A stretch of 64,000 bases of DNA from an uncultured Clostridia bacterium (GTDB lineage Bacteria; Bacillota; Clostridia; Christensenellales; CAG-917), in assembly GCA_944372795.1 (NCBI GenBank), contig CALWAF010000002.1, positions 1 to 64,000 on the forward strand. Direction: 5' to 3'. The stretch's first letter is position 1; the number at the start of each line of letters is the position of its first letter. Positions 22,595 to 25,994 of the stretch are shown here, one piece after another. The notes under the pieces are model-generated. The model was not told the origin of the DNA and did not search any database. It saw only the letters and a program-made list of their open reading frames with translations. Position numbers and translations under genes: made by a program.

Positions 22595-23080
22595 CTAAAA
22601 CCCGATGTACGGTTGCACCTTGGTTTTGTTATTTCTGTTTATGGTTTTTTCTTTTTCGTATTTGCCGAGGGTGACGATGGTGAAATCCTCCGCCGTGTAC
22701 CCCGTGAGCGTGCCTCGGAATGTGCAGTCGGGAGTGATGGCCTCGATCTCGGTGCCGAGTGCGCGCCTGAAATCGTCGTCCGTCACGATGGGACGGTCCA
22801 GCCCCGACGAGGATACGTTGAGGATGTAGTCGTCGGGGAAAAGCTCCGCCACGGTGTCGAGTGCGTCGGAAACTGCGCCGTGCACCTTCTCGCAGTCGTC
22901 GAGGGTGACCTCGTCGGGATGCCAGATGAACACGGTGAGGTTGAATTTGCCGTATTCCTTCGTATAGCGGATCTCTACGGTCTCGTAATCCGCACCGAGG
23001 GACGCGACCGCATCCTCCACCAGCTTCTCGATCTTGCTTCGCGCGTCTTCGGACAGCGCGGAACGGGCGTCTCTTGCCAT
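22595..23080 (-). CDS. rimP: Ribosome maturation factor RimP
   Basis: A 161-residue factor for 30S assembly. The N-terminal alpha/beta domain has LVEDAVASLGADYETVEIRY. The central motif DDCEKVHGAVSDALDTV and LNVSSSGLDRPIVTDDDF (usually SSPGLDRPL) are diagnostic. An Sm-like C-terminal domain follows. AAGGAGA stands 5-6 nt before the ATG. It starts the nusA section of the superoperon directly after a terminator-like hairpin. Confidence 0.95.
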   Translation of the reverse strand: MARDARSALSEDARSKIEKLVEDAVASLGADYETVEIRYTKEYGKFNLTVFIWHPDEVTLDDCEKVHGAVSDALDTVAELFPDDYILNVSSSGLDRPIVTDDDFRRALGTEIEAITPDCTFRGTLTGYTAEDFTIVTLGKYEKEKTINRNNKTKVQPYIGF

Positions 23081-23265: not shown

Positions 23266-24849
23266 TCAGATGCGCTCCGCTATCACCCGCAGCAGTTCCA
23301 CCGTCGCAAAGACGTCTCCCATCGCGCGGTGGGCTTCGATGTGCGTGATGCCCAGCATCTTGGTCAGCGCCTCGAGTCCGACGTGGCGCGCCTCGGGGAT
23401 ATATCGCCTTGCGAGCAAGAGCGTGTCTTCGAGCTCGTTGTCGAAGATATATCCTTCCGCCTGCGCATATTTGTTGAGCAGCGGGAAGTCGTAGGAGGAT
23501 ATGTTGTGCCCCACCAGCACCGCGCCTCGCGTAAATTTGAAAAAGTCGGGCAGCACCTCTTTGAACGTGGGCATCCCCCGCACCATGGAGTCGGTGATGG
23601 AAGTCGTCTCGGTGACCACTTCCGGGATGTGGCACTTGGGGTCAAGCAGCGTGGAAAAGGTCTCTGTGATCTTGCCGTCCTTCACCTTCGCCGCGCCTAT
23701 CTCGATGGGTTCGATGGTGGGGATATCCAGCCCCGTTGCCTCGAAGTCGAAGATGACGAAGGTCTTGCCGAGGAAATATCCCGGCGTCTTTTTCGCCTCG
23801 CCGTCGTCGAACAGCGTCTTTTGAGAGGTCGGCTCGGTGAAAGGCTGCGGACGTATCAGCGAATATTTTGCGGGCACAGGCTTCGATGCCGCCGCCTGTA
23901 TGGAGGAAAAGTCTATCTTTGCCGAGAACATCGCGTTGATGGCAAAGCTCGGTGCGCCGTTATATGAGGATATGGTCACCTTCCCCGTGCACACCACCTC
24001 GTCCTTTTCGCCTACGGAGTCGAACACGGATGCCTCTTCCGCGCGCGGGAAGCAGACGCAGTCCATCCTCCCCGTGGTGTCGTCCAAGAAGAAGCGGACG
24101 AGAGGCAGTTCCTCGGGCCCGTTCTTCGGGTCGTCCGGGGTGTACTTTTTGTTCTTGTAAGTGCGTTTCGTGAGCCCCGTCACCCTTCCGCACAGCACCA
24201 CATTGTCCACCGCCGCTTTCACGTCCGCGATGTAAGCGGGCATACGTGATATCCCCGCGATCTTGCCCCGCGCATATATCTTTTTGCCCGTTTCCACGGT
24301 GATGAGGCGCATATTCGGGTCTTTGACCACCACGCTTTCGCCTAGGTCGTCGAAGACGGGAGGTGTCGCGCTCTCCGTCTCTCGCAGGGTCACGGATATG
24401 TGCTGATTGAAATTGTTGTCCAAAAAGTCGCGGAGCCCGCCCGTTCCGTCCGCAGTCTGCAGCATCTTGCAAAGAGGCGGCTCCAACGACAAAGTCACCG
24501 AAACGGTGTCGGTGTCGGCAGAGACCGCGACGTTTTCCGCCGAAAGCGCCCTGAACACTATGGCGTTGGTAGCGTTGAAGTACTCCATCACCTTGTTGCG
24601 CACGGTGCCTTCGTCGGCAAACGTCCTTATGTATTCGGCGTGCACGTCAACTCCCGCGAATATCTCGGAAAGGACTTCGTCCACTTTCTTTTTCTTGTCG
24701 TCATCGAAAGCTCTCGCGTCATACGCAGATATGAGGAAACGCACGGTGAGAATGCCCGTGTCCTTTTGATAGAGCGCGGATCTGAATTTGAGCATGGGGA
24801 ACGCTCCTCCGCTCGCTCTTTCGAATTCCTCGGTAAATTTGTTGTGCAT
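23266..24849 (-). CDS. PolC-like N-terminal/OB/DEDDh-exonuclease protein at the polC locus, lacking PHP and polymerase parts
   Basis: A 527-residue protein occupying the exact place of polC (between ispG/rseP and rimP). Residues 1-200 resemble a PolC N-terminal region. About 215-305 form an OB fold (VVLCGRVTGLTKRTYKNKKY, then VRFFLDDTTGRMDCVCFPR). About 360-527 form a DnaQ-type exonuclease with all DEDDh residues: D368 and E370 in FDFEATG, D454 in GHNISSYDFPLL, H507 and D512 in HRAMGD. The protein stops right after the exonuclease, and only 155 bp of non-coding DNA precede rimP. Full PolC is about 1,400 residues and carries PHP and polymerase domains. GGGAGGATAAT precedes the ATG at 24849. 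Proofreading in trans is an inference. Confidence 0.85.
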   Translation of the reverse strand: MHNKFTEEFERASGGAFPMLKFRSALYQKDTGILTVRFLISAYDARAFDDDKKKKVDEVLSEIFAGVDVHAEYIRTFADEGTVRNKVMEYFNATNAIVFRALSAENVAVSADTDTVSVTLSLEPPLCKMLQTADGTGGLRDFLDNNFNQHISVTLRETESATPPVFDDLGESVVVKDPNMRLITVETGKKIYARGKIAGISRMPAYIADVKAAVDNVVLCGRVTGLTKRTYKNKKYTPDDPKNGPEELPLVRFFLDDTTGRMDCVCFPRAEEASVFDSVGEKDEVVCTGKVTISSYNGAPSFAINAMFSAKIDFSSIQAAASKPVPAKYSLIRPQPFTEPTSQKTLFDDGEAKKTPGYFLGKTFVIFDFEATGLDIPTIEPIEIGAAKVKDGKITETFSTLLDPKCHIPEVVTETTSITDSMVRGMPTFKEVLPDFFKFTRGAVLVGHNISSYDFPLLNKYAQAEGYIFDNELEDTLLLARRYIPEARHVGLEALTKMLGITHIEAHRAMGDVFATVELLRVIAERI

Positions 24850-24905: not shown

Positions 24906-25994
24906 TCAATGATTTTTAGAATAGTCTGCAATATACTCATCCAACATTGACATAAACAGCGGCATCAGCATATTCGTGTCCACAGTGGTGACTATCTCGC
25001 CGTCCCGCATTATCACCGATCTCTCCTTGCCGCCCGCGATGCCGAGGTTGCTGTGCTTCCCCTCGCCTATGCCGTTGAGAGGACAGCCCATCACCGAGAT
25101 CTTGAGCGGAAGACGGACGTGCGCAGTCGCGCGCTCCACCGCAAGTGCGAGGCGCTCTACGTCTATCTCGGTGCGCGCGCAGGTGGGACATGATACCACT
25201 TCCACGCAGTCCTGTTTGAGTCCCAAGGAACGCAGCAGCGTCTTGCATGCCAGCACTTCTTCCACGGGAGAGTCGGAAAGAGAGATGCGCACGGTGTCCC
25301 CTATGCCCTCTTCGAGCAGGATCCCGATGCCGAGCGCGGATTTGACCAGACCGCTGCGCAGTGTGCCTGCTTCGGTGACGCCGAGGTGGAGAGGATAGTC
25401 GCACGCAGCGGCAAGGGCTCTGTTTGCCGCGATCATGGTGCGGACGTCGGAGGCTTTGACTGCGACGACTATGTCGTGCATATTGCAGCTCTCGAACACG
25501 TTTGCGCACTCGAGGGCGCTTTCGACAAGAGCTTCGCACTCCCCTTTTCCGTCGAATTTGGGGTCGCGGGAGCCGCCGTTGACTCCGACGCGCACGGGGA
25601 TGCCCTCGTCCGCCATCCTGCGGGCGAGCTCGCGTATCTCTTCCGCGTTGTGCATGTTGCCGGGGTTCATCCTGATCTTTTTCGCGCCGCCGGCTATGGC
25701 GAGATGCGCAAGTTTGCAGCTGTAATGGATGTCCGCGATGAGCGGCTTTCCCGTCGCTTTTGCGATCTTGCCGAACGCCTCTGCCGACGCCTCGTCGGGG
25801 ACGGCAAGGCGGATGAGGTCGCATCCTGCGTCCGAAAGCTCTTCTATCTGCCGCACGCAGCCGTCGATGTCGGTGGTGCGGGTGTTGAGCATGGACTGCA
25901 CGGTGACGGGAGCTCCACCGCCTATGGCGACGGTGCCCACTTTTACGCGCCTTGTGACGCGGCGTTTCGGCGTGTTTTTCTCTTCTTTGGTCAT
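24906..25994 (-). CDS. ispG: 4-hydroxy-3-methylbut-2-en-1-yl diphosphate synthase IspG (GcpE)
   Basis: Iron-sulfur enzyme of the MEP isoprenoid pathway (362 residues). VGTVAIGGGAPVTVQSMLNT opens the TIM barrel. The 4Fe-4S ligands are in SCPTCARTEID and VMGCPLNGIGEGKHSNLGIA. It sits with dxr and uppS in the same operon, so three isoprenoid and lipid-carrier steps are co-transcribed. It lies 53 nt downstream of rseP. Confidence 0.96.
   Translation of the reverse strand: MTKEEKNTPKRRVTRRVKVGTVAIGGGAPVTVQSMLNTRTTDIDGCVRQIEELSDAGCDLIRLAVPDEASAEAFGKIAKATGKPLIADIHYSCKLAHLAIAGGAKKIRMNPGNMHNAEEIRELARRMADEGIPVRVGVNGGSRDPKFDGKGECEALVESALECANVFESCNMHDIVVAVKASDVRTMIAANRALAAACDYPLHLGVTEAGTLRSGLVKSALGIGILLEEGIGDTVRISLSDSPVEEVLACKTLLRSLGLKQDCVEVVSCPTCARTEIDVERLALAVERATAHVRLPLKISVMGCPLNGIGEGKHSNLGIAGGKERSVIMRDGEIVTTVDTNMLMPLFMSMLDEYIADYSKNH

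Follow-up and report, generated by a model that had tools for sequence, protein, structure and literature searches.

At the genomic position occupied by full-length PolC in sister families, nearly all sampled members of 15 related families of Clostridia encode a short protein which is PolC by descent, without the polymerase that defines PolC. The best explanation of this protein, which we regard as probable though short of established, is that of a PolC-derived, clamp-tethered proofreader for DnaE which, in addition, fulfils a non-catalytic role in the replisome.

Gene context and domain composition of the short form

The window, i.e., the whole stretch of 64,000 nucleotides that was analysed, harbors on a single strand, in the order of transcription, tsf, pyrH, frr, uppS, cdsA, dxr, rseP, ispG, the short-form gene, rimP, nusA, ylxR, an L7Ae-type gene, infB, and rbfA, the names of the neighboring genes having been assigned from sequence and order. 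The short-form gene extends from position 24849 to 23266 on the minus strand, stop codon included, and specifies 527 amino acids. Its neighbors ispG (24906 to 25994, minus strand), located upstream in the direction of transcription, and rimP (22595 to 23080, minus strand), located downstream, are conserved in the locus comparison. Because only 185 bp separate the short-form stop codon from rimP, a polymerase remnant between the two genes can be excluded.

Four parts are distinguished in the encoded protein. The N-terminal region (NTD; approximately residues 1 to 157, positions 24379 to 24849, minus strand) comprises two tandem KH-II-like subdomains homologous to NI-NII of PolC, as judged by HHalign, pLDDT, and fold matches, and is followed by an OB fold (approximately residues 185 to 312, 23914 to 24297, minus strand), which is supported by a subthreshold Pfam match, HHalign, the AlphaFold2 model, and a VIA/Foldseek match to PolC (PDB 9qpc) from residue 189 onwards. 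A linker then carries the putative beta-clamp-binding motif QKTLF (residues 343 to 347, 23809 to 23823, minus strand) and precedes a DEDDh 3'-5' exonuclease domain (approximately residues 360 to 527, 23269 to 23772, minus strand), identified by Pfam and Foldseek, in which D368, E370, D454, H507, and D512 are all present on a DEDDh fold. Pfam assigned RNase_T to the 527-aa protein with an E value of 9e-33 and returned no match to PHP, Pol3, or HhH. These results bear out an earlier note, according to which the gene between ispG and rimP encodes only a PolC-like N-terminal part, an OB fold, and an intact DEDDh exonuclease. The protein scored below the cut-off of every NCBIfam model: 114 to 126 bits against the PolC models (cut-offs of 873 to 1043), 69.6 bits against the DnaQ model TIGR00573 (cut-off of 71.5), and far below the cut-off for the other curated DnaQ families. 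The AlphaFold2 model (P0001) had a mean pLDDT of 91.9 and a pTM of 0.61, with a block of lower pLDDT at residues 341 to 350, which contains the QxxLF-type motif.

Ancestry of the short form

Similarity to PolC is not confined to the exonuclease. When the region preceding the exonuclease was compared by HHalign with the NTD and OB fold of PolCs from sister families, a collinear match over 308 columns was obtained (probability of 99.8%, E value of 8.6e-28), and the NTD alone matched that of PolC with a probability of 96 to 97%. The top Foldseek match of the whole model was the PolC of Enterococcus faecium (9qpc), with 400 columns covering the OB fold plus the exonuclease, and VIA-align superposed residues 189 to 527 on PolC residues 218 to 590.

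Since the NTD of PolC is unresolved in the 9qpc structure (PMC12592400), residues 1 to 165 of the short form were folded alone, and they were also searched by themselves, exonuclease matches having crowded out others when the full model was used. The resulting model (pLDDT of 94.7) displays two beta-beta-alpha-alpha-beta units, the second of which resembles the type II KH domains of Era, S3, and NusA with a middling score (Z of 7 to 9 over approximately 70 to 83 residues); domain V of tau had no entry among the fold matches listed. The modelled fold of the short-form NTD agrees with published accounts (PMC3919608, PMC12926913), in which the PolC NTD consists of a pair of KH-II-like subdomains that are related to domain V of tau.

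Loss of full-length PolC, for which a single event suffices

The search for another full-length PolC in the genome of the window yielded none. The PolC model TIGR01405 was not matched at its cut-off in any of the 43 genomes of the same family, compared with 88 of the 297 genomes of the order (at least 90% completeness) and 267 of 293 in a sample of the class. Within the order, PolC is distributed by family: it was present in 91/93 genomes of 12 sister families (a count which takes in three PolCs that fell below the cut-off, being fragments on split contigs) and in 0/204 genomes of 15 related families. Both groups share the gene order dxr-rseP-ispG-X-rimP-nusA; in the sister families, X is full PolC, and in the 15 families, it is the short form. 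Gene order could be judged only where a contig covers the locus, and some neighbors went undetected in some loci.

In a maximum-likelihood tree of DnaE from 29 genomes, a single branch with a support of 100/100 separates the 17 PolC-less genomes from all others; the class outgroup falls among the PolC holders, and one partial row (G044) was left out. As the PolC-less families constitute one DnaE clade, a single loss suffices, and loss is inferred to be the simpler direction of change because PolC is general in the class.

Several further observations were made on PolC-related proteins. On contig C38 of the window's own genome, a PF07733 match (L003:4468-5514, minus strand) corresponds to a DnaE-like protein of 348 aa which matches Pol3 and the fingers only partially and in which the palm aspartate motif is seemingly lost (PETPFSFY where PDFDIDF would be expected); five genomes of the family contain intact frames of 364 to 375 aa with 50 to 89% identity. 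It was rejected as the missing part of PolC, being a DnaE-like remnant of patchy occurrence (6/43 genomes of the family). Near it on the same contig lies the gene for a 459-aa protein (L003:2373-3752, plus strand) that begins with a zinc-ribbon-like segment and has a DEDDh exonuclease near the PolC type at its C terminus. In sister family f9, four full-length PolCs (L131, L132, L137, and L138) have no detectable DEDDh exonuclease insert and represent the mirror image of the short form. Elsewhere in the class sample, neither PolC nor the short form was found in families f91 (4/4 genomes) and f57 (2/2), apparently representing independent losses of PolC; outside the order, the PolC-less f57, f91, and single genomes of f56, f74, and f85 yielded only plain exonucleases or fragments when a protein resembling the short form was sought.

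Conservation of the short form

A protein search detected the short form in 38/43 genomes of the same family, among which were 25/25 good assemblies and 10/10 genera, and the extracted frames stop right behind the exonuclease, with a rimP-sized frame next in most. Across the 15 families it was present in 202 of the 204 PolC-less genomes (at least 90% complete; tallied across several searches), no match being found in G276 and G282, which may reflect assembly gaps or true losses. Its length is approximately 520 to 550 aa within the family and 492 to 600 aa in nearly all of 80 species loci drawn from a named collection. That collection includes Christensenellaceae, Coproplasma, Gallimonas, Stercoripulliclostridium, and the isolate Anaerocaecibacter muris (Pumilibacteraceae), from which the carrying clade is inferred by name to be a Christensenellales-like group of Clostridia. 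In the A. muris isolate, strain CLA-AA-M11, the short form at locus L088 comprises 499 aa, with the linker motif QSSMF and all DEDDh residues in place. In a structure alignment of 59 diverse short forms, the DEDDh residues were invariant.

The remaining polymerase

The earlier note had further inferred that another polymerase, a DnaE, replicates the chromosome. In support of this, the genome of the window encodes one full DnaE of 1188 aa, its only full C-family polymerase, in which the PHP metal-site residues, read by eye, are intact and a clamp motif, QMSLF, is present. A single strong DnaE match was likewise obtained in each of the 17/17 PolC-less genomes sampled. In a sample of DnaEs from 30 genomes, dead-exonuclease genomes (see below) among them, the PHP motifs searched were present in nearly all and a QxxLF-type motif in most. 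Clostridial DnaE1 is reported to combine all the properties expected of a sole replicase, and DnaE1-only members of the Clostridia exist (PMC3919608).

A putative clamp motif in the linker

The pattern Q-x-x-[LMIF]-[FLYW], in most cases with F at the final position, occurs in the linker preceding the exonuclease in 67/80 species, 16 to 22 residues ahead of the exonuclease start, compared with a mean of 4.4/80 and a maximum of 11 in 1000 rounds of linker shuffling. It was absent from the 40 residues before the exonuclease in all 14 full PolCs of sister families that were inspected, nearly all of which carry a QxxLF-type motif at the C terminus. The new linker thus contains a counterpart of the motif that disappeared with the polymerase end, and whether the motif moved there or newly arose is undecided. 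The linker QxxLF is likely a docking motif for the sliding clamp, physical binding to DnaN being inferred. In some close relatives of the window's species, K or R replaces the motif glutamine (KKTLF, RKTLF), and clamp binding may be weak in these.

Lineages with a dead exonuclease

Orthologues missed by the first profile were recovered with a profile built from divergent members. In the alignment, 34 genomes belonging to three lineages, namely, family f14, most of f17, and a single genus of f26, show other residues at the DEDDh positions, apart from an isolated D that survives in a few cases. The same neighbors surrounded the gene in the six loci checked, with rimP and nusA undetected in one of them. 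The dead-form frames span 485 to 605 aa and retain the motif glutamine in 33/34 cases, mostly as QxxFV or QxxLY and without a canonical motif. Where computable, dN/dS was approximately 0.03 to 0.16, the pseudo-exonuclease part included, with dS saturated. Family f17 also contains strong matches to the active profile (G173, G182, and G301). In the DnaE tree, f14 lies beside the active f5, and genus 71 of f26 beside the active genus 63 of the same family; because dead lineages sit beside active ones, the exonuclease was inactivated independently at least two times, and probably three.

The persistence of dead variants in these genomes signifies that catalysis, or proofreading, is not the sole selected role of the protein. 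Many dead-form genomes encode small (approximately 190 to 220 aa), separate DEDDh-like exonucleases, e.g., L276, L268, and L273 (G058, G190, and G230), which are possible replacement proofreaders; none of the few recovered by the extraction rule contained a clamp motif.

Proposed function and alternative interpretations

It is proposed that in the ancestor of the approximately 15 families polC would have lost its PHP, polymerase, and HhH portions while keeping the two KH-like domains, the OB fold, and the DEDDh exonuclease, and that the QxxLF clamp motif, C-terminal in full PolC, would now reside in the pre-exonuclease linker. A single DnaE1-type polymerase, which has its own QxxLF and whose PHP site is intact, would replicate the entire chromosome. 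Most likely, although these steps are inferred in the absence of biochemistry, the short protein would hold the sliding clamp via QxxLF, its NTD would contact the replisome or the clamp loader (the latter contact having been proposed for the NTD of PolC [PMC3919608]), and the exonuclease, in a presumed complex with DnaE, would trim mismatched 3' ends left by that polymerase, as epsilon does in E. coli. A non-catalytic replisome role in addition is inferred from the retention of the protein by three lineages after loss of the active site. The claim of the earlier note that PolC has been reduced to a stand-alone proofreader is supported, the reduction resting on ancestry, locus, and the loss of PolC, and neither of the two conditions under which that note would have given it up, namely, another full-length polC in the genome or a lack of PolC similarity beyond the exonuclease, was fulfilled. 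It is subject to two qualifications: the proofreading function is an inference, and it cannot be the sole role, since three lineages lost the exonuclease residues yet keep the protein. It could also be held against this explanation that the PHP site of DnaE might proofread unaided.

The most serious competitor, for which we would claim tentative standing only, is that the protein acts mainly as a non-catalytic adaptor which ties together clamp, clamp loader, and DnaE, its exonuclease being optional. The 34 genomes without DEDDh residues, which in three lineages keep the locus, the length, the motif glutamine, and purifying selection, speak for such a function, as does the KH-like nature of the NTD, described for both the PolC NTD and tau domain V (PMC3919608); the invariance of DEDDh in 59/59 diverse short forms, however, indicates that selection maintains the catalytic activity in most families. 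The course of evolution that can be envisaged from replicative polymerase to replisome adaptor, first as a clamp-tethered proofreader and then, repeatedly, as a dead scaffold still needed by the replisome, is similarly a possibility that falls short of our preferred explanation.

Recruitment by the clamp to repair, e.g., mismatch repair, with DnaE proofreading through its own PHP domain, is considered unlikely. Repair proteins also carry clamp motifs, and the PHP residues retained in the DnaE of the window and in nearly all sampled DnaEs would suit such a division of labor, but the short form descends from the proofreading domain of a replicative polymerase, at whose locus it resides, and it is kept in almost all PolC-less genomes of the clade. 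Still less credible is an activity on RNA, which the KH and OB folds, the DEDDh nuclease, and the rimP-nusA-infB neighborhood within a translation/ribosome operon might suggest, since that neighborhood is simply the ancestral polC locus and the clamp motif indicates DNA. Finally, the idea that the gene is a full polC disrupted by misassembly or a frameshift, or one that has recently become a pseudogene, for which only the 52 contigs of the window's genome could be invoked, is refuted by the equal short length across 10 genera of the family and approximately 15 families, by rimP directly after the stop codon, and by the absence of the PolC polymerase domain elsewhere (TIGR01405 over cut-off in 0/43 and 0/204 genomes).

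Significance and comparison with known systems

Surveys recognize three bacterial replicase sets, namely, DnaE1 alone, PolC with DnaE1, and PolC with DnaE3 (PMC3919608, PMC12926913). The clade described here has, as a whole, shifted from PolC with DnaE1 to DnaE1 alone, retaining the proofreading end of PolC as a separate protein, and no published description of a polymerase-less (short) PolC was found in the open-access literature searched, which leaves out most subscription journals. The 2026 survey was based on complete genomes, and the clade is represented mostly by metagenome assemblies, which may be the reason for the oversight. The clade provides a natural test of the roles of the PolC NTD, OB fold, and exonuclease without the polymerase, and of whether the DnaE1 of Clostridia alone can replicate a genome; it is also predicted that gut Clostridia belonging to it lack the target of the PolC inhibitors in clinical development (PMC12592400).

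Among known systems, the short form is closest to the PolC-type DNA polymerase III of Bacillus subtilis and E. faecium, with which it shares the locus, the NTD-OB-exonuclease order, sequence, and fold; it differs in the absence of PHP, palm, thumb, fingers, HhH, and the C-terminal clamp motif, and in the possession of such a motif between OB fold and exonuclease. By inference, it resembles epsilon (DnaQ) of E. coli in that a DEDDh proofreader equipped with a clamp motif exists as a protein of its own beside a DnaE-type polymerase, but it is derived from PolC, carries KH-like and OB domains, and has its motif before rather than after the exonuclease, and an alpha-binding tail of the epsilon type was not seen in it. 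The non-canonical X-family polymerases cited in PMC12926913 are likewise members of a polymerase family reduced to an exonuclease with polymerase activity absent, but they belong to a different family, employ a PHP exonuclease, and are not encoded at a replicase locus. The exonuclease-less PolCs of Clostridia and Negativicutes (PMC3919608) also separate polymerase from proofreader in the evolution of PolC and constitute the mirror case, in which the polymerase was kept and the exonuclease lost.
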